Made by a program: the position numbers and the translations under genes. From Limimaricola variabilis (GTDB lineage Bacteria; Pseudomonadota; Alphaproteobacteria; Rhodobacterales; Rhodobacteraceae): DNA of 64,000 bases. The stretch covers positions 27,616 through 91,615 of the forward strand of contig NZ_JACIBX010000010.1 in NCBI RefSeq assembly GCF_014195545.1, given 5' to 3'. Positions 5,963 through 29,336 of the stretch are shown one piece after another. How positions within the stretch are numbered: position 1 is the stretch's first letter; every line of letters begins with the position of its first letter. The notes under the pieces were generated by a model, which was given only the letters and a program-made list of their open reading frames with translations, searched no databases and had not been told where the DNA came from.

Positions 5963-6070
5963 GCGGGTGACAAGAGCATCACGCAGCTGGCCATTGCGGC
6001 GCGTACCTTGGATGCCCCCGCGAGGGCGAGCATCCGGAACGCTGGCTCGGCGCTCAGACAGGTTTGGTCT

Positions 6071-6664
6071 CTATCGCGCGAAGTTTGAGTGCCTCCCCGC
6101 CAGCCCCGCATCGCGCAGCGCTTCGACATCCGGCAGGTCCCGCAGATCCCTCAGTCCGAAGACCGCAAGAAAGCCCGGCGTAGTGACGTAGGTGTAGGGC
6201 GCGCCGCGTCGTGGCGCGCGTGGCCCCGGCGCGATCAGTTCCCGCGCCGCCAGCCGACCGATCAGGTCGCGGGAAATCTCGCGTCCGAAGATTTCGGCCA
6301 GCCCGTCACGGGTGATCGGCTGGTGGTAGGCGATGGCGGCAAGCACCGCGAGGTCACGCTCGGACAGGCCGATCTCCCGGTCGCCGACATTGGCGGCGAC
6401 GCGGATCACCGCGCCGTAGGCGGGCCGGGTGCGCAGCATCCAGGCGTCGCCGACCCGCACGATCTCGTAGGGCCGGTCGGCCAGCTCCGCGGCGAGATCG
6501 TCGAGCAGCAGGTCAAGCGCCGCCCCCTGCCCCACGACGCGCGCGAGATCGGCCCGCAGCACCGGTCTGGGGCTGGCGAACAGCACCGCTTCGATCCTCC
6601 GCATCCACTCGCGCCAGCGCAACTCGCGAGGCAGCTCGGCCAGCTCGCGGTCGATCATGTCCAT
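6071..6664 (-). CDS. scpB: ScpB-like chromosome segregation/condensin subunit
   Basis: A 197-residue protein of the ScpB family, two winged-helix domains that normally bridge SMC-ScpA rings. The first domain includes RRIEAVLFASPRPVLRADLA; the second includes LAAIAYHQPITRDGLAEIFG and the family segment YTYVTTPGFLAVFGLRDL. It begins 2 bp after the DUF1403 stop (ATG at 6664, alternative ATG two codons on), so the two form an operon. No smc or scpA gene is in the window, so it is an accessory, probably plasmid-type ScpB rather than the housekeeping copy. A broken copy lies at 1855-2190. Confidence 0.82.
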   Translation of the reverse strand: MDMIDRELAELPRELRWREWMRRIEAVLFASPRPVLRADLARVVGQGAALDLLLDDLAAELADRPYEIVRVGDAWMLRTRPAYGAVIRVAANVGDREIGLSERDLAVLAAIAYHQPITRDGLAEIFGREISRDLIGRLAARELIAPGPRAPRRGAPYTYVTTPGFLAVFGLRDLRDLPDVEALRDAGLAGRHSNFAR

Positions 6665-7717: not shown

Positions 7718-8695
7718 TTACCCGGCTTTGCCGATACGAAGCTGCCCGTCGCCATCGATCTCGAGCGGCACGGGGTCCATCACGTAGCCGCCGAAAGCCT
7801 CCTTGCCGCCGTCTCGGAAGCCCATCAGCACGGGGCCCGTTTCGGTCATCAGCACCCTGGCCGCGTAGCGATAGCAGGGCAGATCGCCGTCGAGAAAGCC
7901 CGGCGCCACCCGCCATGACCCGCGCGGGCCGTCGCCGACGAGGTAGTGGTTGCCGGTGACCGGCGGCACGCCTGCCTTGGCCTTGCGCTCCTCGGACCAG
8001 TGGATGTCGGCGGTGCAGAACAGGCAGTACCAGCGCCCCTTGATCTCGAAGGCCTGCGGCACCTCGAGCTGGCCGTAATCGCCCACGAAGACCGGCGGTT
8101 GCAGGGTCCACTCATAGAGATCGGGCGAGGTCGCGAAGCCGATCGCGCCGCCGGCATTGGCTTCCTCGATGCCCGGCGCGCGGGCGGTGAAATACATGAG
8201 GTAGCCATCACCCTCGGGGTCCTTCATCACGAAGGGATCGCGCATCGCCCGGTCGGGCCAGAAGCCCACCTGCATCTCGGCCTCGTAATGGACGGCGTTC
8301 GGCCCTTCCAGGTCGAGACAAAGGCCGGAGCCGATGCGCTCCCAGGAATGCATGTCAGTCGAGGTGGCGTGGCCGATGCGCTGGTAGAGCCCGTTCTCAG
8401 CCGAACCGCCACCGGTGTAGAACAGGTGCCAGACCCCATCGGGGCCCTCGATCACCGATCCGGTCCAGGTCGTGGTGTCGTCCCAAGCGGGCTTCGGCGC
8501 GGGCCTCAGGCAGGTGCCCTTGTGCTCCCAGTTCACCAGATCGTCGGAGACGGCGTGGCCTTGGCTTACGTTGAAGTGGCGCAGATCCGGGTCGCCCAGC
8601 GACTTGTCGGCTTGCAGGAAATAGCCGTGCCAGCGCTGGCCGTCATGGGCGTACCAGCTGTCCCAGATCCATTTGTCGTCGAGCGAAAGCGGCAT
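7718..8695 (-). CDS. Clan GH-J glycoside hydrolase (GH32/68-like), putative beta-fructosidase
   Basis: A 325-residue, cytosolic (no signal peptide) five-bladed-propeller hydrolase. Candidate clan GH-J residues are visible: Asp12 in WIWDSW (nucleophile position), Asp153 in MRDPF (transition-state stabiliser) and Glu211 in QLEVPQ (acid/base position). TWTGSVIEGPDGVWHLFYTG is also typical. The start has GGGGAA 7 bp upstream. It is the last gene of the alpha-galactoside operon, 134 bp after the dehydrogenase gene, which may allow separate transcription. It would fit hydrolysis of the sucrose/fructosyl part left after MelA acts on raffinose. GH43 is an alternative family; specificity is inferred from context only. 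Confidence 0.65.
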   Translation of the reverse strand: MPLSLDDKWIWDSWYAHDGQRWHGYFLQADKSLGDPDLRHFNVSQGHAVSDDLVNWEHKGTCLRPAPKPAWDDTTTWTGSVIEGPDGVWHLFYTGGGSAENGLYQRIGHATSTDMHSWERIGSGLCLDLEGPNAVHYEAEMQVGFWPDRAMRDPFVMKDPEGDGYLMYFTARAPGIEEANAGGAIGFATSPDLYEWTLQPPVFVGDYGQLEVPQAFEIKGRWYCLFCTADIHWSEERKAKAGVPPVTGNHYLVGDGPRGSWRVAPGFLDGDLPCYRYAARVLMTETGPVLMGFRDGGKEAFGGYVMDPVPLEIDGDGQLRIGKAG

Positions 8696-8829: not shown

Positions 8830-9759
8830 TCAGAAATTGAACGGCGCGACGGTCACCCGCCGCCCGAGCGTCATGGCGTCGGCGATATGGATCATCGGCG
8901 CGAGGTCGACATCGCTTTCGCCCTTCGCCACCAGCTCGGCCATCCGGGCATAGAGCGCGGGGTATTCGCCGGGATGCTCCGGCAGCGGCGCCGGTGTCCC
9001 GTCGATCTCGAGCCGCGCCCCGCCGTCGCGCAGGGCGATCGCGCCCTTGTTGGTCTCGATCTCGATGTCCCAGCTCTGCGGGCCTTCCTGCCGCCAGTCG
9101 AACACCGCGCCGACATTGCCGGTGAAGTCGAGCCGGGCCGCGATCGGGGTGTCGCGGTTCTCGGGAAACTCCAGCTCGGCGGAGACGAGATGCACCGGCT
9201 CGGGCAGGATCTCGGTCAGGATCGACAGCGCGTTGATGCCCGGGTCCATCACCCCCATGCCGCCGGGCTCGAAGACCCAGTCCTGGCCGGGATGCCATTT
9301 GCGCACATCCTCCTTCCAGGTGATGTGCACGCCCTGCACCACCCGCTCGATCAGCCGCGACTTCGCCGCCGCGACGCCCGCCGCCATGCGGCTGTGCCAG
9401 CTGGCATAGAGCGTGACGCCCTGCTTTGCGGCGAGCCGCTGCAGCGCCTGCACCTCGGCCAGCGTCTGGCCTGGCGGCTTTTCGAGCATCACGTGCCGCC
9501 GCGCCAGCAGCGCCTTGCGGGCATAGGCGAAGCGCGGCTGCGGCGGCAGGCAGAGCGAGATCACCTCGATGTCGGGACGCGCCGCGAGGAAGGCGTCGAA
9601 GTCGCGATGCGCCTCGACCCCCTCGACCGTGCCGGATCGGCTCACCGTCGCGGCGAGCTCCCAGTCGGGGCTCGCCTGCAGGGCCGGTACGTGCTGGTCG
9701 CGGGCGATCTTGCCGATGCCGACGAGGGCGATCTTGTAGGGACTGGTGCCGTGGGCCAT
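8830..9759 (-). CDS. D-galactose/L-arabinose 1-dehydrogenase (Gfo/Idh/MocA family)
   Basis: A 309-residue NAD(P)-dependent sugar dehydrogenase. The Rossmann motif is ALVGIGKIARDQHVPA, followed by MLEKPPGQTL (Glu93-Lys94-Pro95). KWHPGQDWVFEPGGMGVMDP then GINAL strongly recalls the Azospirillum L-arabinose 1-dehydrogenase and the galactose dehydrogenases; Asp172 and Asn176 sit where that enzyme has its catalytic pair. It would oxidise galactose to galactonolactone, feeding the dehydratase, DgoK and DgoA encoded upstream in the same operon. The ATG at 9759 overlaps the dehydratase stop (TGATG) with GGAGAG upstream; longer open frames above it are shadow sequence. Galactose is preferred as substrate because of melA and dgoKA; arabinose or fucose remain possible. 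Confidence 0.8.
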   Translation of the reverse strand: MAHGTSPYKIALVGIGKIARDQHVPALQASPDWELAATVSRSGTVEGVEAHRDFDAFLAARPDIEVISLCLPPQPRFAYARKALLARRHVMLEKPPGQTLAEVQALQRLAAKQGVTLYASWHSRMAAGVAAAKSRLIERVVQGVHITWKEDVRKWHPGQDWVFEPGGMGVMDPGINALSILTEILPEPVHLVSAELEFPENRDTPIAARLDFTGNVGAVFDWRQEGPQSWDIEIETNKGAIALRDGGARLEIDGTPAPLPEHPGEYPALYARMAELVAKGESDVDLAPMIHIADAMTLGRRVTVAPFNF

Positions 9760-11501
9760 CAATGGCTCTCCTTGCCGACCGCGTTGCCGCGACAGCCGAC
9801 CAGGAAGTCGAAATCGGCGCCGGTCTCCGGCCCCATCACCCGCTCGTGGTAGAGGCTGGCATAGCCCGAGGCGGGGGCCTGCACCTGCGGCGTCCATGCG
9901 GCCAGACGCGCCGCCAGCTCCTCGTCCGAGATGTCGAGATGCAGCCGCCGCGCGGCGACGTCGAGCTCGATCATGTCGCCCGAGCGCACCACCGCCAGCG
10001 GCCCGCCGCGCGCCGCCTCGGGCGAGGTGTGCAGCACCACGGTGCCATAGGCGGTGCCGGACATCCGCGCGTCCGAGATCCGCACCATGTCGGTGATGCC
10101 CTTGCGCAGCACCTTGGGCGGCAGGCCCATATTGCCGACCTCGGCCATGCCGGGATAGCCGCGCGGCCCGCAATTGCGGAGGACCATCACGCAGCTTTCG
10201 TCGATGTCGAGATCCTCGTCATTGATCCGCGCCTTGTAGTCGTCGATGTCCTCGAACACGACGGCCCGGCCCCGGTGCTGCATCAGCGCAGGCGTCGCGG
10301 CCGAGGGTTTGAGCACGGCACCCAAGGGCGCGAGGTTGCCCTTGAGCACGGCGATGCCGCCCGACTTGGCCAGCGCGCGCTCGACCGGAAGGATCACGTC
10401 CTCGTTCCAGTTCTGCACCTCCTTGACCTCGTCCCAGATCGCGCCGCCTGACACGGTCAGCGCCTCGCGGTGCAGCAGCCCCGCTTCGCCGAGCCGCTTG
10501 ATGACGACCGGCAGGCCGCCGGCATAGAAGAACTCTTCCATCAAATGCTGGCCCGAAGGCATCAGGTTGACGATGGTCGGCACGTCGCGGCCGCAGCGGT
10601 CCCAATCCTCGAGCGTCAGGTCGATCCCGACCCGCCCGGCGATGGCGAGCAGGTGGATCACCGCATTGGTGGAGCCGCCGATCGCCGCATTGGTGCGGAT
10701 CGCGTTCTCGAAGGCCTCGCGGGTCATGATGTCTGAGGGCTTCAGGTCGTCCTTGACCATGTCAACGATGCGCCGACCGGTCAGATGCGCCATGACCCGG
10801 CGGCGGCTGTCGACCGCCGGGATCGCGGCGTTGCCCGACAGCGCCATGCCGAGCGCCTCGGCCATCGAGGCCATGGTCGAGGCCGTGCCCATGGTGTTGC
10901 ACGAGCCGGGCGAGCGGCTCATCGAGGCCTCGGCCTCGACGAACTCGGCCTCGGTCATCTCGCCCGCGCGCACGGCCTCGGAGAAGCGCCACAGATGCGT
11001 GCCCGAGCCCACCCGCTCGCCGCGGAAATGGCCGTTCAGCATCGGCCCGCCCGAAACCACGATCGCCGGCAGGTCGACCGAGGCCGCGCCCATCAGCAGC
11101 GCCGGCGTGGTCTTGTCGCAGCCGGCCAGCAGCACCACGCCGTCGATGCATTTGCCGCGCACCGCCTCCTCGACATCCATGGCGCACAGGTTGCGATACA
11201 TCATCGCGGTCGGGCGCAGCGTCGATTCCGACGGGGAGAACACCGGGAACTCGACCGGCAGGCCGCCAGCCTCGTAGATGCCGAACTTCACCCGCTCCGC
11301 GAGGTCGCGCAGATGCGCGTTGCAGGGCGTCAGCTCCGACCAGGTGTTGCAGATGCCGATCACCGGGCGGCCGTCGAACAGGTCGGCGGGCAGGCCTTGG
11401 TTCTTCATCCAGCTGCGGTGATAGATCGCGTCCTTCGACGTGCCGCCGAACCATTCCTGCGAACGCAGCTTGCGGGGCCAGGGGGCGGGGGTGAAGCTCA
11501 T
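9759..11501 (-). CDS. Sugar acid dehydratase (IlvD/Edd family; arabonate/galactonate type)
   Basis: A 580-residue iron-sulfur dehydratase. Cys60 (NTWSELTPCNAH), Cys128 (AGCDKTTPA) and Cys201 (SPGSCNTMGTAST) match the three [2Fe-2S] ligands of the Rhizobium L-arabonate dehydratase, and Lys130 matches its carbamylated lysine. That enzyme family also takes D-galactonate and D-fuconate. Here, between dgoA and a galactose-type dehydrogenase, galactonate to 2-keto-3-deoxygalactonate is the most economical role. The ATG overlaps the stop of a 47-codon ORF (ATGA) and its own stop overlaps the next start (TGATG). An unrelated galactonate dehydratase, DgoD, is encoded at 61847-62995. Confidence 0.85.
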   Translation of the reverse strand: MSFTPAPWPRKLRSQEWFGGTSKDAIYHRSWMKNQGLPADLFDGRPVIGICNTWSELTPCNAHLRDLAERVKFGIYEAGGLPVEFPVFSPSESTLRPTAMMYRNLCAMDVEEAVRGKCIDGVVLLAGCDKTTPALLMGAASVDLPAIVVSGGPMLNGHFRGERVGSGTHLWRFSEAVRAGEMTEAEFVEAEASMSRSPGSCNTMGTASTMASMAEALGMALSGNAAIPAVDSRRRVMAHLTGRRIVDMVKDDLKPSDIMTREAFENAIRTNAAIGGSTNAVIHLLAIAGRVGIDLTLEDWDRCGRDVPTIVNLMPSGQHLMEEFFYAGGLPVVIKRLGEAGLLHREALTVSGGAIWDEVKEVQNWNEDVILPVERALAKSGGIAVLKGNLAPLGAVLKPSAATPALMQHRGRAVVFEDIDDYKARINDEDLDIDESCVMVLRNCGPRGYPGMAEVGNMGLPPKVLRKGITDMVRISDARMSGTAYGTVVLHTSPEAARGGPLAVVRSGDMIELDVAARRLHLDISDEELAARLAAWTPQVQAPASGYASLYHERVMGPETGADFDFLVGCRGNAVGKESH

Positions 11502-11641
11502 GGAAGGCCTTTCGAAAGCGGGGTGACGCGCGCCATGCCCGCATCGGGGGCCTGCGCGAGCGGGTTGATGAGCGGCAGGCCGAAGGGCGCGGCCTCGATC
11601 TCGAACACGTCACTGGTCAATTGGCAGGCTCGGCAAGTCAT
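11498..11641 (-). CDS. Small 47-aa ORF, translationally coupled on both sides
   Basis: An open frame of 47 codons that starts on the dgoA stop (ATGA, 11641-11638) and ends on the dehydratase start (ATGA, 11501-11498). The product starts [20 protein letters not shown] and ends [12 protein letters not shown]. It has a Cys-x2-Cys pair, no signal peptide or membrane helix, and matches no family I know. The double ATGA coupling is the same style used by neighbouring genes, which argues that ribosomes pass through it. It may be a real small protein, or an in-frame deletion remnant of a larger gene, for example a lactonase, which this pathway otherwise lacks. Confidence 0.5.
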
Positions 11642-12246
11642 GAAGCGTAAGCCTCGTCATAGGCGGCGACGATGTCGTAGGCGCGGGTAGCGAGGTCCTC
11701 GATCGAAACACCGGGCGTGTAGAGCGCGGTGCCGATGCCGAAGCCATGGGCTCCAGCTTGGCGCCATTCGGCGAAGTTCGACGGCCCGGCACCGCCCACG
11801 GCGTAGATCCGCGCCTCCTTCGGATAGACCGCACGCATTGCTTTCAGCCCGTCGGGACCGATCAAGCTGGCGGGAAACAGCTTCAATCCGGTGGCCCCGG
11901 CGGCCAGCGCGGCGAAGCCCTCGGTCGGAGTCATCACCCCCGGCCAGCTTTGCATGTCGCGCTTCACCGTAGCGCGGATCACCTCCGGGTCCATGTTCGG
12001 CGAGACGATCAGCGTGCCTCCGGCCGCGCGGACCTCGGCCACTTGCGCGGTCGTCAGCACAGTGCCGGCGCCGATCGTCGCGCGGTCGCCACAGGCCTCA
12101 ACCATGGTACGGATGCTGTCGAACGGGCGCGGCGAATTCAGCGGCACCTCGATCTCCGTGATCCCGGCGGCGATCAGCGTCTCGGCGACCGGGACCGCTT
12201 CGTCCGGGGTCACGCCGCGCAGGATCGCAATCAGGGTGCGTGTCAT
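11638..12246 (-). CDS. dgoA: 2-dehydro-3-deoxy-6-phosphogalactonate aldolase
   Basis: A 202-residue class I aldolase of the KDPG/KDPGal family (E. coli DgoA is about 205 residues). [20 protein letters not shown] is the family start, [11 protein letters not shown] carries the catalytic Glu33, and Lys122 in TGLKLFPAS is the Schiff-base lysine. It cleaves KDPGal to pyruvate and glyceraldehyde 3-phosphate, the last step of the De Ley-Doudoroff galactose route. The ATG at 12246 overlaps the dgoK stop by 4 bp and its own stop overlaps the following small ORF. The Leu-Asn in VPLNSP favours the galactonate over the gluconate enzyme, as does the dgoK neighbour. Confidence 0.88.
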
Positions 12247-13133
12247 GAGGTAATCCCTTGTTTCCAAGCAGCGGTAAGGCCGGCGAGGGTGACCGCGGTG
12301 GCGTCGGCCTGCGTGGCGGGAGCGGCCTGGGCCGCAAGCGCGCGAACATAGAGCTCGGCCAGGTCACCGGCGCCGATCACGCCGATCTGCTGACCCAGCC
12401 AGTAGGGCTTGGCGGCAGCGAGTTCCGCCCCGATCAGAAGCCCCGAAAGCCGGGCACGGGCGACGCCGGATCCGTGCCCGTGCAGCAGGTCGGCGGCGCG
12501 GATCGAGAACAGGGAAGACGCCAGTCGTTCAGGGCGCGAGAGCGTCTCGTTCACCGCGGCGGCGAACGCCTCCTCTTTCCAGTCCGTCCCCTGCACCGAG
12601 TGCCGCAGGACGGTATGGGCCGAGAGCGCGGCGAACAGCTCGCCGGTCATGAAGCTGCGGAAGCTGACCACTTCGCCGGCGCTGACATGCGCCCATTTCG
12701 AATGGCTGCCGGGCAGGCAGAGCACGCCGCTCCAGTTCGGATTCAGCGCAAGGAAGCCGGCGATTTGGGTTTCTTCGCCGCGCATCACGTCGGCCGGTTC
12801 GGCCTGAGACAGGCCAGGGATGATTGACACGTCGAGCCCGCCCGGCACTTGGGTCAGCTGTGACGCGAGCGGCGCGCAGGGCACCGCCGAATAGGTCGCC
12901 TCGACCCAGCCCTGCCGCGCGCCGACCATGCCGCAGGCGATCATCGGCACCGGGCCGTGGTCCAGCCAGTCGCCGCACATCTCGCGCAACGCCGGTTCAA
13001 ACTGGTCGGGGGACAGCGTGCCCATGCCCTTGGCCGAGCCGCGCTCTTCCAGCACCGCGCCCGAGCCGCTCATCGCCCAGCCTCGCAAATGCGTCGTGCC
13101 CCAGTCGAGGGCAATCCAGTCTGGTGTCGTCAT
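12243..13133 (-). CDS. dgoK: 2-dehydro-3-deoxygalactonokinase
   Basis: A 296-residue sugar-acid kinase of the DgoK family. The N-terminal phosphate-binding segment [19 protein letters not shown], the block [38 protein letters not shown] and [14 protein letters not shown] are characteristic. It phosphorylates 2-keto-3-deoxygalactonate at O6, making the substrate of DgoA. It lies 63 bp after the halogenase gene and overlaps dgoA by 4 bp. Length and motif order are normal. Confidence 0.88.
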
Positions 13134-13196: not shown

Positions 13197-14735
13197 TCAG
13201 TGTTGCAGTTGCTCCGCATCGGCCTTTGAACCGAGCGGTTCCAGAAGATCCAGCCATTCCCGATGCCCCAGACAGCGTTGGGAGGCTTTGCAGTATTCGT
13301 CGATGAGCTCCCCATGCAGCTCCGCTGCCGTCCTCCGGTCTGCGGGTCGTGAGCCAAGCGCCTGCTCTGCGGCCTCGCGGTCGAGAAGCCCGAGACCCGC
13401 CAGCACCGGTCGCCAGAGCTGCTCCTCGACATGAGGCAACCGCATCGGGAAATGTGCAAAATCCGATCTCTCGGGCATCCGGTTTGCCCAATCGGCAAGT
13501 CGATCGGTCAGGGCCGCCGGGTGGCTGCCGGCCACGTCGCGCCAGAAGCCGGTGTCACGTCGCTCCGAGAAGTAATGCGCGCGGATGAAATCTCGAAAAT
13601 CGTCCACCTGCCGCGCATGCGCGGCGTTGTAGCGCGCGCGGCCTTCCGGATCGTCGTGCCAACCCACGAGCAGCAACAGCTGGACGATGGTGCCATGAAT
13701 CGAGGTCGCCTCGAGCGGCTCGAGAAAGGACGAGGCGAGCCCGAGTGCGACGGTGTTGCCGATCCAGGGTGCCCGCAGTCGCCCGGCCCGGATCGGGATG
13801 TCGGCGCGCGGTTCGATCGAATGACCGAGCGCGGCTTCGATCTCGGCTTGTGCCTGATCTGGCGTTGTATGGAGGTCGGAATAGACATAGCCGCACCCCA
13901 TTCGGTCACGGGTGGGGATTTGCCACATCCAGCCTGCGCCTTGCGCCCATGCCAGAGTGAATGGCGCGACCTCGGTGTCTGGGTCATGATTGAGCCAGAA
14001 CGGCATCGCGCGGTTGACCGGCAGCACGTCGCCGTAATCGATCCACTGGGCTCCGAGCGACCCGATCAGTGTCCGGCGGAACCCGGTGCAGTCGAGAAAC
14101 AAATCGGCCTCAATGCGTCGCCCATCCTCGAGCGCCAGCGTGGTGATGCCAACCGGGCCGGTCTGGACCCCCGTGACCTGCGCATCGATCCGCGTGACGC
14201 CGCGCGCCTTGCTGCGTAGCCACATCCCCACACGGGCCTGGTCAAAGTGATAGGCATGGTGAAACGGTCCGGCGGGCACCAGCAGGTCTCCGATCCTTGC
14301 CACCGGGGCACGCCCTGCATCCATCAGCGCCTGAAACAGGTGCGCCTCTGTCAGGGGGCGCCCCGACGCCAACGCATACTGGGCCAGCGGCACGCCCGGG
14401 GCCACGAGGTGCGGATCGTCGATCGGACCGTCATAGTGATGGCCAATCCGCCGCCAGTCGCGGTGGCGGATGCCGTATTTCACCGTGGCCCCGGTGGCCG
14501 CCATGAACTCGGCCTCTTCGAGACCGAGATGCTTGAGCATTTGCCGGAACACCGCAGTGGTGCCTTCACCGACCCCGATTGTCGGGATCTTCGACGACTC
14601 CACCACGGTGACCGTTCCCACCTGTCCGCCCCCCCCCTGCCCGGCCCGCAGTTGCGCATCGCGCAGGATCAGTGCCGCGAGCCAGCCCGCGGTGCCGCCG
14701 CCGACGATGACGATGCGACCGGACAGGAGGCTCAT
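13197..14735 (-). CDS. FAD-dependent tryptophan-halogenase-like protein
   Basis: A 512-residue flavin-dependent halogenase homologue. It has the FAD-binding GGGTAGW (residues 12-18), the conserved lysine in TVKYGIRHRDW (Lys86, matching the catalytic lysine of PrnA/RebH), and the halogenase signature WMWQIP (269-274). FLEPLEATSIHG carries Glu342, matching the PrnA active-site glutamate, but the neighbouring serine is Ala. The start (ATG 14735) is 1 bp from the melA stop, so it is an integral gene of the alpha-galactoside operon. No flavin reductase is nearby. The substrate is unknown; a free or glycosylated aromatic compound is possible. A role in sugar catabolism is not established. Confidence 0.82.
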   Translation of the reverse strand: MSLLSGRIVIVGGGTAGWLAALILRDAQLRAGQGGGGQVGTVTVVESSKIPTIGVGEGTTAVFRQMLKHLGLEEAEFMAATGATVKYGIRHRDWRRIGHHYDGPIDDPHLVAPGVPLAQYALASGRPLTEAHLFQALMDAGRAPVARIGDLLVPAGPFHHAYHFDQARVGMWLRSKARGVTRIDAQVTGVQTGPVGITTLALEDGRRIEADLFLDCTGFRRTLIGSLGAQWIDYGDVLPVNRAMPFWLNHDPDTEVAPFTLAWAQGAGWMWQIPTRDRMGCGYVYSDLHTTPDQAQAEIEAALGHSIEPRADIPIRAGRLRAPWIGNTVALGLASSFLEPLEATSIHGTIVQLLLLVGWHDDPEGRARYNAAHARQVDDFRDFIRAHYFSERRDTGFWRDVAGSHPAALTDRLADWANRMPERSDFAHFPMRLPHVEEQLWRPVLAGLGLLDREAAEQALGSRPADRRTAAELHGELIDEYCKASQRCLGHREWLDLLEPLGSKADAEQLQH

Positions 14736-14736
14736 G

Positions 14737-16095
14737 TCACGATGCCTTGCGTCGCTCGACCCGCGCGAACTCGGGCAGCCAGTCGCCATGCGCTTCGAGC
14801 AGTGCGTCGGTCACCGCCCAGATCTGGTCGAGATCGAGCTCGGCCGCGGTATGCGGGTCGAGCATGGCGGCGTGGTAGATGTGCTCAGGGTTCTGCTCCA
14901 TCAACGCCGCGACGGTCAGCTCCTGCACGTTGATGTTGGTGCGCATCAGGGCGACCAGCTGCGGCGGGATGTCGGTGACCACCGTGGGCTGGAGCCCGTT
15001 GGCGTCGACCAGCACCGGCACCTCGACGGCGCAGCCTTCGGGCAGCTGCGGGATGAAGCCCTGGTTGCGGATGTTGCCGTAGATCACGCTGGGCTGGCCC
15101 GTGACCACCGAGTTGATGATCTCGCTGGCGTATTCATGGCTCGGCTTCACGGTGATGCTCTCGGCCTCGCGGTATTTCGCCGCCTGCCGCTCCCAGGCCT
15201 CGACCTGCTCGACGCAGCGCTTGGGGTATTCGTCGAGCGGAATGCCGAACTTCTCGATCAGGTCGGGACGGTCGCGCTTGATGAAATAGGGCAGGTATTC
15301 GGCGTGGTGCTCCGAGCTTTCGGTGACGAAGTAGCCCAGTCGCGACATCATCTCGTAGCGCACCTTGTTCGGGCAGCGCGGCGAATGCGAGAAGCGCGGG
15401 AAGCGGCCCTCGGCATAGCCCTGCTTCAGCGCCGGGTAGAGGTCGCGGAAGCTGCCATCGGGCTGGCGATGCTCGAAGTTCAGGAAATAGGCCATGTGGT
15501 TGATGCCGGCCGAACGGTAGCGGATCTCGTCGACGGGGATGCCGAGATCCTTGGCCAACTCCTTTGCGGTGCCCTGAACGGAGTGGCACAGCCCCACCTG
15601 CCGGATCTGCGGATACTTCGCGCCGATCGCCCAGGTGTTGATCGCCATCGGGTTGACGTATTGCAGCATGATCGCCTGCGGGCAGACCTCAAGCATGTCC
15701 TCGCAGATCGACCACAGATGCGGCACGGTCCTGAGCCCGCGCATGATGCCGCCCACACCCAGCGTGTCGGCGATGGTCTGGCGCAGGCCGAAGCCCTTGG
15801 GGATCTCGAAATCGGTGACCGTGCAGGGCTCGTAGCCGCCGATCTGGAAGCAGACCACGACGAAGTCCGCGCCGTCCAACGCCGCGCGTTGGTTGTCGAA
15901 GGTGCGCACGGTGGCGGTGCCGCCGAGCGTCTGCGCCATCTTGCCGACCACGACCTCGGATTCCTCGAGCCGCTTGGGATTGATGTCCATCAGCCGGATC
16001 TCGGCATCTTTCAGCGCCTCGCGGCTCAGGATGTCGCCGGCGATGTTCTTGGTGAAGACGGTGGAGCCCGCCCCGATGAAGGTGATTGTCGTCAT
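14737..16095 (-). CDS. melA: Alpha-galactosidase, GH4
   Basis: A 452-residue GH4 enzyme closely resembling E. coli MelA over its whole length. MTTITFIGAGSTVFTKNIAG is the NAD-binding start; ADFVVVCFQIGGYEPCTVTD and YVNPMAINTWA are MelA blocks. GLCHSVQGTA gives Cys170 and AGINHMAYF gives His200, the Mn2+ ligands. GH4 enzymes hydrolyse through an NAD-dependent oxidation-elimination mechanism in the cytoplasm, here on melibiose- or raffinose-type alpha-galactosides brought in by the adjacent ABC importer. The ATG overlaps the ATPase stop by 4 bp. A further upstream in-frame start would lie inside the ATPase gene and is rejected. Confidence 0.93.
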   Translation of the reverse strand: MTTITFIGAGSTVFTKNIAGDILSREALKDAEIRLMDINPKRLEESEVVVGKMAQTLGGTATVRTFDNQRAALDGADFVVVCFQIGGYEPCTVTDFEIPKGFGLRQTIADTLGVGGIMRGLRTVPHLWSICEDMLEVCPQAIMLQYVNPMAINTWAIGAKYPQIRQVGLCHSVQGTAKELAKDLGIPVDEIRYRSAGINHMAYFLNFEHRQPDGSFRDLYPALKQGYAEGRFPRFSHSPRCPNKVRYEMMSRLGYFVTESSEHHAEYLPYFIKRDRPDLIEKFGIPLDEYPKRCVEQVEAWERQAAKYREAESITVKPSHEYASEIINSVVTGQPSVIYGNIRNQGFIPQLPEGCAVEVPVLVDANGLQPTVVTDIPPQLVALMRTNINVQELTVAALMEQNPEHIYHAAMLDPHTAAELDLDQIWAVTDALLEAHGDWLPEFARVERRKAS

Positions 16096-17717
16096 GTCGC
16101 TATCTCGAAGGCTGCGCGGACAAGCCGCTGGGTGTAGTCGGTCCGGGGGTTCACGAGCACCTCGTTCACCGGTCCTTCCTCGACGATCTTTCCGTGCTGC
16201 ATCACCATCACGCGGTGACACAGCGCACGCACGACCTTGAGGTCGTGGGAAATGAACAAATAGCTCAGGCCTTTTTCGGCCTGGAGTTTGCGCAACAGCG
16301 CGATGATCTGCGCCTGCACGCTGAGATCGAGCGCCGAGGTCGGCTCGTCGAGCAGGATGAACTCAGGCTCGAGCGCGATCGCGCGCGCGATCGCGAGGCG
16401 CTGCCGCTGCCCGCCCGAGAATTCGTGCGGGAAGCGGTGGGTGATGGTGTCGGGCAGGCCCGCATCGCGCAGCGCCTGCTGCACACGGGCGAAGCGGTCG
16501 CGGCGGCCCGTGCCGATGCCGTTGACGATCAGCCCCTCCTCGATGATCTGCCGCACGCTCATGCGCGGGTTCAACGAAGAGAACGGGTCTTGGAAGACGA
16601 TCTGCATCCGGCTCCGGTAGGGGCGCATGCCGGCCCGGTTCAGCCCGTCGATCCGCTCGCCCTGAAACCGCACCTCGCCGCCGTCGAGCCGCCCGATCTT
16701 CAGGAGTGCCTGACCGAAGGTGGTCTTGCCCGAACCGGACTCGCCTACGAGGCCCAGCGTCTCGCCACGCCGGATGCGGATGTCGAGGCTGTCCACAGCC
16801 TTGAGGCTGTGGAAACTGCCGCGGAAGGCCCCGCCTTTGCGAAGCAGGAACTCGACCTTGACGCCCTGCCCCTCCATCACCGTCTCCGACGCATCGGCGA
16901 TCGGGTTGGCCTGCCCTTTCGGATCGGAGGCCAGCAGGCGACGGGTGTAGGGGTGGCGGGGGGCCGCAAAGATCTCTTTGGTCGGGCCCTCCTCGCGGAC
17001 CTCGCCATGCTGCATGACATAGACGTGGTCGGCGAACTGCCGCACCACGGTCAGGTCGTGGGTGATCAGGATCACCCCCATGCCGTGCTTTGTTTTCAGG
17101 TCGTCGATCAGGTGCAGGATCTCGGCCTGCACCGTGACGTCGAGCGCGGTGGTCGGCTCGTCGGCGATCAGCACATCTGGCCGGTTGGCCAGCGCCATCG
17201 CGATCATCACCCGTTGCCGCTGCCCGCCGGAGAGCTGGTGCGGATATTGCCGCGCCCGCGCCTCGGGGTCCGGCAGCCGCACCTCGTCGAGAAGCTCGAC
17301 CACACGCGCCCAGGCCGTCTTGCGCGACATCTTCTGGTGCAGGCGGATCACCTCCACCAGCTGCGCACCGACGGTATAGAGCGGGTTGAGCGACGACATC
17401 GGCTCTTGGAAGATCATTGCGATCCGGTTGCCGCGCAGCTTGCGCATTTCCCTGGCCGACAGATGCGCCATGTCGCGGCCCGCATAGGTAATGCGGGTGT
17501 CGTCGGAGACGCTGGCGCGCTTGGACAGAAGCCGCATCACCGCCCGCGCCGTCACCGACTTGCCCGACCCGCTCTCGCCCACCAGCGCGGTGGTCTGACC
17601 GGGCCAGAGCTTGAACGACACGTCGCGCACCGCCTCGACATGGCCGCCATCGACCTTGAAGGTCACGCCGACCTTGTGCGCGTCGATCAGCGGTTCGATC
17701 CTGTTCATCTCGGTCAT
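16092..17717 (-). CDS. Oligopeptide-type ABC transporter, fused double ATPase (DppD-DppF)
   Basis: A 541-residue protein with two ATPase domains in tandem. The first has Walker A GESGSGKSV and signature [15 protein letters not shown]; the second has GESGSGKTT and FSGGQRQRLAIARAI. Walker B in the two is VLIADEPTTALD and ILLDEPTSALD. Each domain ends in the oligopeptide-family tail (HPYTRRLLAS, DYTQRLVRAA). The start at 17717 has GGAGG five bases upstream; an ATG at 17729 overlaps the permease stop and is the alternative. It powers the alpha-galactoside importer together with the two permeases. Fused ATPases are common in such AgpABCD-like systems. Confidence 0.88.
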   Translation of the reverse strand: MTEMNRIEPLIDAHKVGVTFKVDGGHVEAVRDVSFKLWPGQTTALVGESGSGKSVTARAVMRLLSKRASVSDDTRITYAGRDMAHLSAREMRKLRGNRIAMIFQEPMSSLNPLYTVGAQLVEVIRLHQKMSRKTAWARVVELLDEVRLPDPEARARQYPHQLSGGQRQRVMIAMALANRPDVLIADEPTTALDVTVQAEILHLIDDLKTKHGMGVILITHDLTVVRQFADHVYVMQHGEVREEGPTKEIFAAPRHPYTRRLLASDPKGQANPIADASETVMEGQGVKVEFLLRKGGAFRGSFHSLKAVDSLDIRIRRGETLGLVGESGSGKTTFGQALLKIGRLDGGEVRFQGERIDGLNRAGMRPYRSRMQIVFQDPFSSLNPRMSVRQIIEEGLIVNGIGTGRRDRFARVQQALRDAGLPDTITHRFPHEFSGGQRQRLAIARAIALEPEFILLDEPTSALDLSVQAQIIALLRKLQAEKGLSYLFISHDLKVVRALCHRVMVMQHGKIVEEGPVNEVLVNPRTDYTQRLVRAAFEIAT

Positions 17718-17728
17718 CACCGCCTCCA

Positions 17729-18952
17729 TCAATACGGGTTGATCGCATCACGCAGCCCGTCGCCGAGCGCGTTGAAAGCGAAGACGGTCAGCAGGACGAA
17801 GCCCACCGGCGACAGGATCCACGGGTAGGATCCGATGGTCGAGAAGGTGCCGGCATCTTGAAGCATCAGCCCCCAGGAGATCATCGGCGGCTTCACCGCG
17901 AGGCCGAGAAAGCCCAAGAAGCTTTCCAGCAGCACGATGGTCGGAATGCCAAGCGTCACGGCGACGATCACGTGAGAGGTAACATTGGGGAGGATGTGGC
18001 GGGTAATGATCCGCCCGTCCCGTGCCCCCACCGCCATCGCGGCGCGCACATAGTCGACCTGCCGCAGCGACATGGTCTTGGAGCGGACCTCGCGCGACAG
18101 CTGCGCCCAGCCCAAGCCGACGATGACCAGCACCACGAAGGTGATGAACAGCCCCGAAGGCGCGGTGGCCGGGATGAGCGAAGCCAGCGCGAGGTAGAGC
18201 GGCAGCTGCGGAAAGGCGAGGATGATCTCGACGAAGCGCTGGAACCAGGCGTCGAACCGCCCGCCGATGTAGCCTGACGTGATCCCCGCCAGCGTGCCGA
18301 TGATGGTGATCAGAGCGATGGAGGACAGCGCGATCGCCAGCGTGATCCGGCTGCCCACCACCCCGCGCGAGAAGATGTCGCGCCCGAGCTTGTCAGTCCC
18401 GAGGATGTGCAGCGGCGAGCCGTCGGCCGAGAGGAACAGGTGCCGCGAGAAGGTCAGGCCGAGGAACTCGTACTCCCAGCCCTTGGCGAAGAATGCGATG
18501 CCGCGCGGGTTGTCGTAGTCCGGGCCGGTCAGCGGCTGGAAGGTGATCGGATCTAGCTCGTCACTCTCCGCGATCGGGAACACCACCGGCATGAGCCGCC
18601 AGCCGCTCTCCTCGCCCTCGCCCGGCACGTGCCAGGAGATCCGGTCGGGCGGCTGAAACGCCACGTTGGCGGCGCGCGGATCGACCGGGGCCACGAAGGG
18701 CGCGAAGATCGCAGCCAGGAGCAGCAGCGCTACCAGCACCAGTCCCAGCATCCCCGGCACCGACTTGCGCAGCCTGCGCCAGACCAAAGCGAGGTAGGAC
18801 TGCCCCTCGGTCGAAACGGTCGACACGCGGGCGTCGAGCGTCTCGGAGCCGAGATCGTGCTCCCAGTCGACGGGCGGTGTCTCGTCTCCGATGTTGCGCT
18901 CGGGGCGCTTGCCCTCGGGCAGGTGGCGGGCGGGATCGAATGTGTCCGACAT
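17729..18952 (-). CDS. Oligopeptide-type ABC transporter permease (DppC type)
   Basis: A 407-residue permease, longer than usual for DppC (about 300). After a 60-residue hydrophilic N-terminus the first helix MLGLVLVALLLLAAIFAPFV is followed by a large periplasmic loop of about 100 residues, then HILGTDKLGRDIFSRGVVGS, the family motif, and the ATPase-docking segment DYVRAAMAVGARDGRIITRH. Such a long loop is typical of the alpha-galactoside/opine-type members. Its ATG overlaps the preceding permease stop (TGATG). It forms the channel with the DppB-type partner. Confidence 0.88.
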   Translation of the reverse strand: MSDTFDPARHLPEGKRPERNIGDETPPVDWEHDLGSETLDARVSTVSTEGQSYLALVWRRLRKSVPGMLGLVLVALLLLAAIFAPFVAPVDPRAANVAFQPPDRISWHVPGEGEESGWRLMPVVFPIAESDELDPITFQPLTGPDYDNPRGIAFFAKGWEYEFLGLTFSRHLFLSADGSPLHILGTDKLGRDIFSRGVVGSRITLAIALSSIALITIIGTLAGITSGYIGGRFDAWFQRFVEIILAFPQLPLYLALASLIPATAPSGLFITFVVLVIVGLGWAQLSREVRSKTMSLRQVDYVRAAMAVGARDGRIITRHILPNVTSHVIVAVTLGIPTIVLLESFLGFLGLAVKPPMISWGLMLQDAGTFSTIGSYPWILSPVGFVLLTVFAFNALGDGLRDAINPY

Positions 18953-19956
18953 CACTGGTTCCCCACCCGAATGCGCGGGTCGAGCAGCATGAGCAGCAGG
19001 TCCGCGATGATGTTGCCGATGATCAGCGTCGCACCCAGCACCAGCAGCAGCGTCGCGGTGACGTAGGTGTCGCCGATCCCCATGGAGCCGACGATGGCCG
19101 GTCCGACAGTGGCAAGGCTGAACACGATCGCCACCTCGATCTCGCCGGTTAGCATGTAGGGCATGACCACGCCCTGATAGGCAACCAGCGGGTGCAGCGC
19201 GTTGGGCACGGCGTGGCCCATGATCACCCGGTGCTCGGGCAGGCCCTTGGCCCGCGCGGTCTCGACGTATTGCGCGCCGAGCGTGTCGAGCAGGTTCGCG
19301 CGCATCACCCGCATGTTGTAGGCGAGGCCACCGATCGCGGCGATGGCGATTACCGGCCAGATGTGCTCCATCAGGTTGACGAACTTGCCCCAGCTCATCG
19401 GCTGGCCGCCCCAATAGGAAGAATAGAAGCTGCCCAGCTCCTGCACGTCGAGCTTGAAGGCCAGGATGTAGAGCACGATCAGTGCCAGCAGGAAGCGCGG
19501 CACCGTCATGCCGATGAAGCTGATGAAGCTCAGCACCGTGTCGGTCCAGCCGTATTGCCGTGTCGCAGCGAGGATGCCGAACAGGATGCCCAGCAGGGAC
19601 GCCACGAAATGGCTTGCCAGAGCCAGCGCGATGGTGCGCGGCAGGCGCTCTCCCACGACCTCGGAGACGGGCTTGTTGTAGTAGAAGGAATGGCCGAAAT
19701 CGCCGCGCGTCACGATGCCGGTGATCCAGCGAATGTACTGCACCACCATCGGATCGTTCAGCCCGTTCTGCTCGCGATACTGCTCGGCGGCGGCCGTGGC
19801 GGCGGCGGGGCTGGCATTGCCCTGGGTGATCATCTGCGTGCGCAGGTAGTCGCCGTAGTCGCCCGGCGGCGCCTGGATGATGGCGAAGGTGATGACGCTC
19901 ATCGCGAACAGCACCGGGATCGCCTGCAAGAGCCTCATGGAGATGAAGCGGATCAT
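18952..19956 (-). CDS. Oligopeptide-type ABC transporter permease (DppB type)
   Basis: A 334-residue membrane protein. The start MIRFISMRLLQAIPVLFAMS and the segment YIRWITGIVTRGDFGHSFYY are typical of DppB/OppB permeases; YVETARAKGLPEHRVIMGHA is the ATPase-docking loop followed by VPNALHPLVAY. It lies 170 bp after the binding-protein gene, separated from it by a strong stem-loop, and overlaps the next permease by 1 bp. Confidence 0.88.
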   Translation of the reverse strand: MIRFISMRLLQAIPVLFAMSVITFAIIQAPPGDYGDYLRTQMITQGNASPAAATAAAEQYREQNGLNDPMVVQYIRWITGIVTRGDFGHSFYYNKPVSEVVGERLPRTIALALASHFVASLLGILFGILAATRQYGWTDTVLSFISFIGMTVPRFLLALIVLYILAFKLDVQELGSFYSSYWGGQPMSWGKFVNLMEHIWPVIAIAAIGGLAYNMRVMRANLLDTLGAQYVETARAKGLPEHRVIMGHAVPNALHPLVAYQGVVMPYMLTGEIEVAIVFSLATVGPAIVGSMGIGDTYVTATLLLVLGATLIIGNIIADLLLMLLDPRIRVGNQ

Positions 19957-20126: not shown

Positions 20127-22208
20127 TCAGCCCGCGGTGACGGGGCCGTCCTCGCCGGGCGCGCCCGGCAGGGTCTCGGGATGCAGCTCGTGGTTCTGCT
20201 GCTTGTCCTCCGGGACGAAGAGGCGCTCGCGCATCACGTTGTCCTCGGCCCAGTTAAACATGAAGATCGGCGTCCCCTGCGGCACATTGGCAAAGCGCTT
20301 GTTGACCACCAGCGCGCCGGGATAGGCGGTCAGACCGACGCCGTAGAGGTTCTCCGTCGCCACGGTCTGGTAGCGCTTCATCAGCTCGGTCTTCTCCTCG
20401 GCATCGTTCGAGGACATGAAGTCGCGCACGATCTGGGCCAGCTCCTCCTCGAAGGGTAGAAGGTCCATCTCGCCTTCGGCGTTGGCCATGTGCAGCTGCG
20501 AGGTGTTCGGGCCCGTCGGTGCGAGGTTGGCGGTGTTCTGCACCCCGGTCACCAGCTCGGTCCCGGTGCGCTGGATGCGCCAGTCGTAGCGGCCCGCGTC
20601 GCGGGTGGCATCGAAGTCGTTGCCGGCAAGCAAGTTCAGCGAGACGTTGATCCCCGCATCCTGCAACATCGCCACCACGCCCTCGGCCACGGTTCGGTCG
20701 GTGCCGTAATCGGTATTGGCCATCAGGGTCATCACCACGTCACTGCCCCCCATGTCCTTGGGCAGGTTGAGGATGCCATTGCCGTCCGTGTCCTCGAGCC
20801 CGGCCTCCGCGAAATGCGCCTTAGCGCTCTCGAGGCTGTAGGGATAGAAGACGGTGCTCTCACGGTCGAAATAGGTGGTGTCGGGCAGCAGGCCGCCAGC
20901 ATAGGGGGTGGTGAACGGTCCCTTCACCAAGCTCTCGCCGAGCCGCTGCCGGTCGAGCGCCTGGGCGATGCCCTTGCGGAAATGCTCGTTGCGATTCAGC
21001 TCGCGGATCGTCTGGGCCCGCTCGTCCGGTTCGCCCCAGCCATTGCCCGAGAGGTTCGGATAGAGGCCGTAGCCGATGATCCGCGGCCCGAATTCGAGGG
21101 CGGCGGGCGCATCCTCCTCGGCGGCGCGCCGCAGGCTCTCGACGAAGTTGGCCGGCTGTTCGAGGTTCGAGAAATCGCCCGTACCGGCCACCGCCTGAAT
21201 GTCGCGATCCGCCCAGGTCGAGAGGCGATAGTGCATCTCGTCGAGATAGGGCAGCTGGTTGCCGTCGCTGTCGACCTTCCAGTAGTATGGGTTGCGTCGC
21301 ATCACCACGATGTCGTCGGGACGGTACTCGACCGGCACCCAGGCGCCCATCACCGGAAAGTTCAGGAAATCCGGCGGAAACGCGTTGCGGAACTCCTCGT
21401 AGCTGTTGTCCGAGAACTCCGGATGCGCTGGCCGCAGCATGTGCTCGGGTCCGGGGCAGAAAGTGCCGTAGCCCATGGCGTAGAGGATCTGCTCGGGCCG
21501 TTCGGTGGTGAAGTCGAAGCGCACGGTGAAGTCGTCGACGCGGGTCAGCGTGGTGCCCTCGCCAAAGGTGCCTGGGTTGGCACCGTTGAGCGGCGTGACC
21601 TCTGGGTCCTGCACGATGTGGTCCCAGTAGAACATCACGTCGGCGGCGTCGAACGGGTCTCCGTCGGACCACTTCGCACCCTCGACGAGATGCACGGTCA
21701 ACGACTTGCCGTCTTCGGACCATTCCCAGCCCTTCGCGAGGTTCGGCAGTGGCGCGAGATCCTCTGGCTCGACCTGAAACAGCGGACCGACGCGGGTCAG
21801 GCACTCCATGGTGCCGATGTCGATCCCGCCCCAGCCTTGGCTGTTGCCGGCGGCATAATTCCAACCCTCGGGGCGGCCACCGATCACGTGGCGCATCACG
21901 TCGCCGTAGACACCGGCGCCGTCGGGCATGTTGGCGGTTTCCATGACCAGCGGCTCGGCGGGCAGCCGCTCCTCGACGGGGGGCAGCTTGCCCGCCTCGA
22001 CGAAGGCCTTCACGAAGTCCGGCTCGTTGTAGCTGTCGAGCTTGCGGAAACCTTGGATCGCGTCGCGCGGCACGAAGATCGGCGCACCTTGCGCGGCGAA
22101 GGCCGGCGGTTCGGGCGGGGCCGTCGGCTCGACGATCTGGGCCATGAGGGCGCCGGGCGCAGCGCCCGCCATCAGCATGGTCAGCAAGGTGCGCTTGAAC
22201 GTTGTCAT
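20127..22208 (-). CDS. Alpha-galactoside ABC transporter, binding protein (AgpA/peptide-binding family 5)
   Basis: A 693-residue family-5 (oligopeptide-type) binding protein. The ATG at 22208 follows GGGAGG; MTTFKRTLLTMLMAGAAPGA is the signal peptide, cleaved near ALMA-QI. RPEGWNYAAGNSQGWGGIDI, LAKGWEWSEDGKSLTVHLVE and FDAADVMFYWDHIVQDPEVT are family-5 features. Sugar-binding members such as Rhizobium AgpA belong to this family, and melA in the same operon makes an alpha-galactoside the likely ligand. It is the first gene of the operon. Longer upstream open frames overlap the AraC gene and are not used. Confidence 0.87.
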   Translation of the reverse strand: MTTFKRTLLTMLMAGAAPGALMAQIVEPTAPPEPPAFAAQGAPIFVPRDAIQGFRKLDSYNEPDFVKAFVEAGKLPPVEERLPAEPLVMETANMPDGAGVYGDVMRHVIGGRPEGWNYAAGNSQGWGGIDIGTMECLTRVGPLFQVEPEDLAPLPNLAKGWEWSEDGKSLTVHLVEGAKWSDGDPFDAADVMFYWDHIVQDPEVTPLNGANPGTFGEGTTLTRVDDFTVRFDFTTERPEQILYAMGYGTFCPGPEHMLRPAHPEFSDNSYEEFRNAFPPDFLNFPVMGAWVPVEYRPDDIVVMRRNPYYWKVDSDGNQLPYLDEMHYRLSTWADRDIQAVAGTGDFSNLEQPANFVESLRRAAEEDAPAALEFGPRIIGYGLYPNLSGNGWGEPDERAQTIRELNRNEHFRKGIAQALDRQRLGESLVKGPFTTPYAGGLLPDTTYFDRESTVFYPYSLESAKAHFAEAGLEDTDGNGILNLPKDMGGSDVVMTLMANTDYGTDRTVAEGVVAMLQDAGINVSLNLLAGNDFDATRDAGRYDWRIQRTGTELVTGVQNTANLAPTGPNTSQLHMANAEGEMDLLPFEEELAQIVRDFMSSNDAEEKTELMKRYQTVATENLYGVGLTAYPGALVVNKRFANVPQGTPIFMFNWAEDNVMRERLFVPEDKQQNHELHPETLPGAPGEDGPVTAG

Positions 22209-22395
22209 TCGTGTTCCTCCCCTGTCGGCGGTCCATCTCGGCCGGCCTGTTTGCGTCCCGAGCCCGCCTTCGGCTTGCTTCAGGTCCCTCCGCCTCCACG
22301 GACGGGATGCCGGCAACGTTGCGCTCGACACGCCCTTGCGGCAATGTCGGAACCGGACGATGTTTTCCGGCTTTCTCAGGTTTGCGGAGGATTTC
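22209..22395. promoter_or_regulatory. Divergent promoter region of the alpha-galactoside operon and its AraC gene
   Basis: A 187-bp gap between divergent starts must hold both promoters. A perfect palindrome GCAACGTTGC lies at 22313-22322, and a related half GCGGCAATGTCGG at 22338-22350. These are candidate AraC-type half-sites, but no clear -35/-10 pair can be pointed out. Confidence 0.45.
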
Positions 22396-23298
22396 ATGAC
22401 CAGATCGTCGCGGGATCGGGCACGCAGCATTCACGAGCGGCAATTCTACGCGCTCAACCGCGCCGTGGGACGCTTCGGGATTCGCAGCTTCAGGCCGCAG
22501 ATCATGGCGGCGCCGCATTGGCACGGGCATGTCGAGTTCAACTACCTCGAGAACGCATCGATGACCTATGACGTCGACGGGCGCGTGGTGGAACTGCCGC
22601 CCGGACGACTTGCGCTGTTCTGGGCCGGGGTGCCGCACCAGCTGACCGCGGTGACGCCGGTGGGCGAGGCCCCGCCCCGGCTGACCAATCTCTACCTGCC
22701 GCTCGACGCCTTCCTGTTCATGCCGCATGTCGCCGCCTTGCAGATCACGCTGCTCAATGGCGGGCTGGCCCTGATGCCGGAGGCGGTCTGCGACGCGGCG
22801 ACGCTCGACCGCTGGTATCGCGATTACCGCTCGAACGATGTCGAGCGGGTCGAGATCCTGAAGATGGAGCTGAACGCCATGCTCCGGCGCGGGCTTCTGG
22901 GCGGCATCGATTGGCTTCTGGGCGATCCCGGCGCGGAGAGCGGCCGGACCCAGGCCCCGGCGCATGCCCATCACGTCGTGGCGATGATCCGTTTCATCGT
23001 CGAGAACCTTGCCGAGCCGATGAGCAATGCAGACATCGCCGCTGCGACTGGGCTGCACGAGAACTACGCCACGACGCTGTTCAGCCGCGCGATGCGGCTA
23101 CCGCCGAAGCAGTTCCTGATCCGGATGCGGCTTCTCAGGGCCCGCGCTTTGCTGATGGAGAGCGGCACCCCCGTCACCGCCATCGCCGCCGCCTCGGGCT
23201 TCAGCTCGAGTAGCCAGTTCTACGCGCATTTCCGGGCCGCCTACGGCATGCCCCCTCAGGTGATGCGCGACCGGTACATGGCGATGACACTGAGGTAA
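22396..23298 (+). CDS. AraC family transcriptional regulator of the alpha-galactoside operon
   Basis: A 300-residue AraC-type activator. The ATG at 22396 has GGAGG five bases upstream, so it is preferred to the ATG at 22360. The N-terminal cupin (MAAPHWHGHVEFNYLENASM, then LPPGRLALFWAGVPHQL) is the sugar-sensing domain; the two C-terminal helix-turn-helix units are MSNADIAAATGLHENYATTL and VTAIAAASGFSSSSQFYAHF. It is transcribed divergently from the importer operon, as MelR and AgpT are from theirs. It probably activates that operon when an alpha-galactoside is present. Confidence 0.85.
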   Translation: MTRSSRDRARSIHERQFYALNRAVGRFGIRSFRPQIMAAPHWHGHVEFNYLENASMTYDVDGRVVELPPGRLALFWAGVPHQLTAVTPVGEAPPRLTNLYLPLDAFLFMPHVAALQITLLNGGLALMPEAVCDAATLDRWYRDYRSNDVERVEILKMELNAMLRRGLLGGIDWLLGDPGAESGRTQAPAHAHHVVAMIRFIVENLAEPMSNADIAAATGLHENYATTLFSRAMRLPPKQFLIRMRLLRARALLMESGTPVTAIAAASGFSSSSQFYAHFRAAYGMPPQVMRDRYMAMTLR

Positions 23299-25544: not shown

Positions 25545-25577
25545 CGGGGTTGATCCTGGCTCGGGAATGCAGATCCC

Positions 25578-25598
25578 CCAGCGGCAGCATGCCGCTGG
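25578..25598 (-). other. Intercistronic hairpin between smoS and the MDR gene
   Basis: CCAGCGGC and GCCGCTGG form an 8-bp stem with loop AGCAT just after the smoS stop. It has no T-run. It may weaken read-through into the MDR dehydrogenase gene. Confidence 0.45.
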
Positions 25599-25615
25599 AG
25601 ACGACGATCACGCCG

Positions 25616-27390: not shown

Positions 27391-27401
27391 GGGTATATTC
27401 C

Positions 27402-28232: not shown

Positions 28233-28303
28233 GTCAGGCGCTCCCTCTGTTCGGCGTGCGGGGCGTGCGCGGGGTCTGGCCCCGCGCGGCGAAGGTGATC
28301 TGC

Positions 28304-29176: not shown

Positions 29177-29288
29177 CGGAGTTCCTCTGGTCGTGTGACG
29201 GACGGGCGACGGCGCGCCACCCCATGCAGAGAAGCATCGAGGGGTGGCAGGCGGTAACCCGTGACGATGGGAGGGAAGACCGTAGGGT

Positions 29289-29320: not shown

Positions 29321-29336
29321 TCTCATGCAGGCCAGG

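Follow-up and report, generated by a model that had tools for sequence, protein, structure and literature searches.

Introduction

Described flavin-dependent halogenases with a fold close to that of the protein studied here (termed HAL in the following) include BrvH, Xcc4156 and a Pseudoalteromonas halogenase (9luq), which match its model with Z scores of 49.1, 46.9 and 50.0, respectively. Like HAL, these three enzymes carry the catalytic Lys and Glu residues, the WxWxIP motif, and Ser or Asn in place of Gly in the halide loop; unlike HAL, they belong to a separate supported clade and have kept the clamp residues His and Phe, where HAL has Gly and Ile. For BrvH, the passages cited here describe weak indole bromination, a natural substrate that is not known and the retention of most indole contacts (PMC5945002), and it too lacks the Gly of the Fx.Px.Sx.G motif according to the corresponding passage (PMC7336383). 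According to the passages cited, monooxygenation is, or may be, prevented by the WxWxI motif (PMC12871659). The tryptophan halogenases PrnA, RebH, PyrH, Thal and SttH likewise share fold and catalytic residues with HAL, whereas the sequence identity is ~30% and the surroundings of HAL are catabolic. In Thal, the residues H110 and F112 make aromatic contacts according to the passage considered (PMC12247023).

With regard to sugar uptake, the Agrobacterium mel operon and its rhizobial equivalents encode, like the locus described here, a MelB binding protein, and for the uptake gene of Agrobacterium the cited passage reports a range of melibiose, galactinol, raffinose and stachyose (PMC6683767). 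Rhizobium sp. L51/94 shares the ABC genes, which are accompanied by two GH4 genes, yet no halogenase is present there.

Among the literature matches listed, a scope that most subscription papers lie outside of, we found none that links a halogenase to galactoside uptake. The words 'TonB' and 'carbohydrate' are absent from the main text, the part considered here, of two halogenase surveys (PMC12871659, PMC8269204), and tryptophan halogenase transcripts in oil-treated seawater are treated as antimicrobial or phage-linked, not sugar-linked, in the passage cited (PMC11337851). PF04820 proteins and MelB operons are already known, and it is the link between them that we did not find described.

Results

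The window, i.e. the whole stretch of 64,000 nucleotides from Limimaricola variabilis that was analysed, contains a MelB-type alpha-galactoside uptake system. Its operon runs in the order binding protein, two permeases, ATPase, GH4 enzyme, HAL, dgoK, dgoA, dehydratase, Gfo/Idh protein and GH32-like protein, with a MelR-like gene oriented divergently:

22360..23298 (start approximate), plus strand: AraC-type regulator, MelR-like (MelR model 151 bits, below the cut-off of 253)
20127..22208, minus strand: MelB-type periplasmic alpha-galactoside-binding protein, SBP_bac_5 (match to 6epy with E 7e-298, 993 bits, 671 residues)
18952..19956, minus strand: ABC permease in the OppB position, binding-protein-dependent
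17729..18952, minus strand: ABC permease of the OppC type, binding-protein-dependent
16092..17732, minus strand: fused two-domain ABC ATPase of the oligopeptide type
14737..16095, minus strand: GH4 alpha-galactosidase, melA (active-site motif CHSV; model 667 bits, cut-off 486)
13197..14735, minus strand: HAL, PF04820 halogenase-like protein of 512 amino acids without internal stops
12243..13133, minus strand: dgoK, 2-keto-3-deoxygalactonokinase
11638..12267, minus strand: dgoA, 2-dehydro-3-deoxy-6-phosphogalactonate aldolase (278 bits, cut-off 207)
9759..11501, minus strand: IlvD/EDD sugar-acid dehydratase (L-arabinonate dehydratase model 915 bits, cut-off 882), with a probable role on galactonate
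8830..9759, minus strand: Gfo/Idh/MocA oxidoreductase, putative galactose dehydrogenase
7718..8695, minus strand: GH32-like protein that may act on the sucrose half of raffinose-type sugars

Since the binding protein matches 6epy, which we take to be the binding protein (MelB) of Agrobacterium alpha-galactoside uptake, at 993 bits, and given the uptake range of the Agrobacterium system, the operon most likely imports alpha-galactosides of the melibiose, galactinol, raffinose and stachyose kind. Galactose can be used through the De Ley-Doudoroff pathway, and the dgoK, dgoA, IlvD/EDD dehydratase and Gfo/Idh genes are consistent with this route; judged from these dgo-type genes, the operon would also provide for galactose release and use. 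A sequence-only reading had already assigned the operon to alpha-galactosides, and the GH4 model, the MelB-type binding protein, the two permeases and the dgo-type genes all agree with this assignment. An adjoining cluster (24552-30644) appears by eye to serve sugar alcohols and comprises a zinc dehydrogenase, an SDR protein, a TOBE-bearing ABC ATPase and an SBP_bac_1 binding protein, and the stretch 23720-24445, which is 88% identical to positions 5364-6089 of locus L002 and has no Pfam match in one frame, looks by eye like a broken recombinase.

HAL matches the PF04820 profile with 344 bits (cut-off 21, E 2.2e-102) and is the sole PF04820 match in the genome of the window. Its ATG lies 1 bp past the TGA of the GH4 gene, and dgoK starts 63 bp past the stop of HAL. 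The residues K86, WMWQIP (269-274), E342 and A343 are present at the positions given in the sequence-only reading, which was right about the complete halogenase-like protein with its catalytic residues, about its position 1 bp from melA and ahead of dgoK, and about the Ala in place of Ser beside the key Glu. The AlphaFold model has a pLDDT of 91.9, and its best structural matches, with Z scores of 50 to 37 in the first 48 entries, are PF04820-type halogenases. Across 49 sequences, i.e. that of the window and those of 48 relatives, W269, W271, I273 and E342 are invariant and P274 occurs in 48; K86 is kept in all 48 that cover the position, the sequence of L027 being cut by an N gap. The flavin-binding motif GxGxxG is present, with G12, G14 and G17 invariant in an alignment of 34 sequences. 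From this residue conservation, a dead enzyme can be ruled out.

At position 343, 30 of the 49 sequences have Ala and 19 have Ser, and the latter group together in the tree as a single clade, that of Devosia and its kin. As the Ala is confined by lineage, it represents a lineage variant and no mark of a disabled enzyme, and the Ser-to-Ala change, which tracks clades, was rejected as a sign of lost function. With regard to the Fx.Px.Sx.G motif, HAL of the window carries A343 and S345 where PrnA has Ser and Gly; if the motif is read with any spacing, as it is written, S345 and G348 fit. No flavin reductase was found in the operon, and two PF01613 genes elsewhere in the genome, unlinked to HAL, are candidates for this role. 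The model of the flavin-dependent monooxygenase QhpG matches HAL weakly (22.5 bits, cut-off 240).

In a tree of 77 rows, from which L027 was left out as it was from the residue alignment and the clamp comparison, the HAL sequences together with L117 form one supported clade of 49 rows, and BrvH, Xcc4156 and 9luq fall into another. We assume that Thal H110 and F112 correspond to PrnA H101 and F103, and likewise take as given the PrnA and Thal numbering beyond the aligned clamp positions and the cited passages, as well as the specialised meanings of the motifs CHSV and CHGV. At the position of PrnA H101, all 48 HAL rows have Gly (G103), and at that of F103, 47 of the 48 have Ile (I105); the clamp residues of PrnA and SttH, the two enzymes compared, are lost in HAL, and the register is ungapped against SttH (5hy5). 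The His and Phe indole contacts of tryptophan halogenases are accordingly not found in the window's HAL. Among 29 comparison rows, whose 24 genomic members do not include the PF04820 genes of L077, L081 and L108, the first clamp position is occupied by His in 23, Asn in five and Gly in one, and the second by Phe in 28 and Ile in one. The lone row with Gly and Ile is L117, by tree a member of the HAL clade. Polar residues are fixed within the clade, namely H91, D106, N241, D287 and R310 in 48/48 HAL rows, D107 occurs in 47/48, and five further small-genome sequences agree with these clade residues. The aromatic substrate clamp is thus replaced in the HAL clade and the catalytic residues are kept, as read from the aligned sequences. 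The sister of the clade, L116, is intermediate with N, F and E at positions 103, 105 and 106; in L116 (7161-11759), this gene is flanked by a sulfatase gene and a gene for an M81/MlrC-type peptidase.

One scan of a genome collection yielded 48 HAL loci, mainly from Rhodobacterales and Devosia, with metagenome-assembled genomes that include two Trueperaceae and one Oceanospirillaceae. A GH4 gene is found within 5 kb of HAL at 40 of these loci, and ABC genes of the operon's type (ATPase at least 50%, permease 1 at least 40%) are in reach at 36. The sequence-only reading would have taken absence of the gene from the operon in all relatives as a sign of chance insertion; given the conserved linkage and the selection described below, chance insertion can be ruled out. 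The exact melA-halogenase-dgoK order, which it suggested looking for, is not what is conserved, since dgoK is present at seven loci (L002, L018, L019, L026, L031, L033 and, reversed and at a distance, L039) and directly behind HAL at two, L002 and L018. The conserved unit combines HAL, the MelB-type ABC transporter and GH4 enzymes, and it persists in at least three gene orders that vary by lineage. A plain form is found on a Sulfitobacter mediterraneus plasmid, with the order binding protein, permease, permease, ATPase, GH4, HAL, GH4, 4-base overlaps on both sides of HAL, and the annotation 'tryptophan halogenase family protein'.

The 12 loci without ABC genes in reach are L002, L006, L019, L022, L026, L027, L035-L038, L040 and L046. 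The contigs of L006, L019 and L026 end within 0.6 kb upstream, and L022 has no transporter within 10 kb. The nearest relative, L002 (1-9010), lacks the transporter genes as well as the 5' part of melA and has an IS110-type transposase near by; its HAL is still open and shares 95% identity with that of the window. One plasmid copy of HAL is surrounded by IS elements. Neither GH4 nor ABC genes are in reach at seven loci. One is L027, which contains an N gap; the other six (L035-L038, L040, L046) are Devosia-type and form one nested clade of the tree, compatible with a single later loss of linkage. A gene fusion in L027 was ruled out, as the long frame spans a run of N.

Genes for PhyH-family Fe/2-oxoglutarate oxygenases recur near HAL loci (L067 12763-13593, L014 13915-14727, L142 17686-18528 and 5348-6085, L010 2493-3518, L032 13639-14457), and a second oxygen-using pathway step is possible. 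One type, that of L142, is 58-59% identical to L014 or L067, the latter two assigned by sequence match only and the rest by Pfam; the other types are distant.

In the window's family (198 genomes), the HAL query gave matches in 27 genomes at E 1e-30 or better, of which eight have a clade member (at least 51% identity) and the other 19 show 34 to 39%. The MelB-type binding protein gave 12 matches, nine of them strong (at least 43% identity) and three at 29 to 36%. All eight HAL genomes are among the nine with a strong binding protein (Fisher p 1.8e-13, with kinship ignored), and in seven of the eight both are found at one locus; in G165, HAL lies on a contig apart from the transporter and has an in-frame stop. 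The ninth genome, G094, has the transporter and two GH4 genes and no HAL. Matches to melA occur in 51 of the 198 genomes, compared with eight for HAL, and melA was therefore set aside as the linked partner, being weaker than the transporter. The second GH4 enzyme (CHGV motif) was ruled out as a HAL-specific partner, because it is present in G094 (83% identity), where HAL is lacking; the HAL-free Rhizobium mel operon, which has two GH4 genes, may speak against it as well.

In a family of small genomes (that of G357; 80 genomes of 0.9 to 1.6 Mb, ten of them at least 90% complete, three of these with HAL), 23 have HAL and 24 the binding protein, with all 23 shared (Fisher p 3.5e-19, with kinship ignored and all 23 from one genus). 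In G917, which has the binding protein without HAL, the contig ends inside the ATPase gene, the neighbour of HAL in the nearest relatives. Two orders are found among the loci examined, GH4-SBP-perm-perm-ATPase-HAL in L117 and L146 and GH4-HAL-SBP-perm-perm-ATPase in L142-L145, and L142-L146 carry a second, divergent GH4 gene. Across the two family surveys (198 and 80 genomes), there is no case of HAL in a genome without the transporter. The distribution of HAL is patchy, with two of eight genus members and two of 398 genomes of a phylum sample, the window's genome being counted in both. Among 248 plasmid records with the binding protein (149 Rhizobium, 79 Sinorhizobium), a survey of plasmids only, clade HAL occurs in one, and alpha-galactoside use hence needs no HAL. 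From the co-occurrence surveys and this plasmid count, it follows that HAL is an add-on to a known module.

Thirteen HAL pairs were compared for dN/dS, and 12 gave a ratio, L015-L016 being saturated. Selection on HAL is strongly purifying in nine of the 12 (0.04 to 0.11), and constraint is weaker in L003-L004 (0.24), window-L002 (0.30) and L031-L033 (0.63, with almost no change). Values for both HAL and the second GH4 enzyme are available for seven pairs, and in six of these the constraint on HAL is the weaker one.

Beyond the HAL clade, a homologue of a TonB-dependent receptor (the receptor being identified in L106) is found in seven of 16 regions around class-level hits, from five genomes. 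In these regions (L106-L112), PF04820 genes occur singly or in tandem with the receptor homologue, assigned by Pfam in L106 and by BLAST cluster elsewhere, and some also contain Cupin_8, GH3, GH5, GH13, GH29 or sugar transporter genes.

Discussion

Based on its family and predicted fold, the catalytic residues that are intact, the conserved transporter linkage, purifying selection in most pairs and the replaced clamp, we tentatively favour, with a confidence a little short of an even chance, that HAL is an accessory enzyme of a module for MelB-type alpha-galactoside uptake and GH4 cleavage, with putative halogenase-type chemistry on a polar, non-indole molecule. As such, this proposal would keep the known two-component chemistry and change the substrate. 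A separate flavin reductase would supply FADH2, which together with O2 and halide would give hypohalous acid, and this would pass through the WxWxIP tunnel to K86 with the assistance of E342, as in other two-component halogenases. The oxidant may then act on a polar, non-indole molecule that enters via the MelB-type transporter. This could be an unusual alpha-galactoside, or the aglycone that GH4 cleavage sets free from it. With such a step, the cell could use or disarm a wider set of galactosides, and plain melibiose or raffinose would not require it. One could go further and speculate that halogenase chemistry serves catabolism here, with the pocket of the clade remodelled to accept a non-aromatic molecule, either sugar-derived or polyol-like, so that a specific alpha-galactoside can be assimilated or disarmed in several lineages, including small-genome ones; in this strong form, the idea is possible, if somewhat unlikely.

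From our point of view, the main rival is that HAL no longer halogenates and is instead a flavin-dependent oxidase or monooxygenase acting on a sugar, polyol or aglycone of the pathway; the sequence-only reading, too, had named a flavin enzyme with another reaction as its second idea. The loss of the aromatic clamp with fixed polar residues, the Ala beside the Glu in 30/49 sequences and the weak QhpG match would all agree with this, and the PhyH-type oxygenases near some loci would suit an oxidative pathway. However, the halogenase Lys and Glu are fixed and the WxWxI motif, with its proposed role against monooxygenation in the passage cited above (PMC12871659), is intact, and we regard an oxidase as unlikely. 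According to the main idea of the sequence-only reading, HAL would be an ordinary halogenase of aromatic compounds, with the phenolic or indolic aglycones of imported alpha-galactosides as its substrates. Such an enzyme would show the family, the predicted fold and the catalytic residues observed, but the ring-contact residues of tryptophan halogenases are replaced in HAL, whereas BrvH retains most of its indole contacts in the passage cited (PMC5945002), and this loss of the clamp makes an aromatic aglycone less likely as the substrate; we regard an ordinary aromatic halogenase as improbable.

It could also be imagined that, in the presence of galactosides, HAL produces a halogenated signal or deterrent or else modifies a protein, with the operon merely acting as its switch. 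Galactoside use can do without HAL, and one Devosia-type clade keeps HAL with no module in reach; in L035-L037, HAL comes after two paired ABC-2-type membrane proteins and an ATPase, and in L032, L045 and L049 there is a LysE-type exporter downstream of it. In the cluster table, however, such exporters do not occur beyond these few loci, and in the two families surveyed the genomes with HAL all belong to those with the transporter, so that a function of this kind seems quite improbable to us. The patchy distribution (2/8 in the genus, 2/398 in the phylum sample) and the IS elements flanking one plasmid copy are what one would expect of a passenger riding in a mobile operon, but strong constraint in 9/12 pairs and the retention of HAL in small genomes and after rearrangement render this explanation very improbable.

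Flavin-dependent halogenases act on aromatic compounds, mostly in biosynthesis, in the passages cited here. If the accessory role that we favour is true, the HAL clade would represent a catabolic use of this oxidant-making chemistry, without the aromatic clamp and travelling with a sugar importer, and the linked transporter would narrow the candidate substrates of HAL to a short list. The clade further bears on the wider question of why PF04820 genes sit in glycan-uptake loci.
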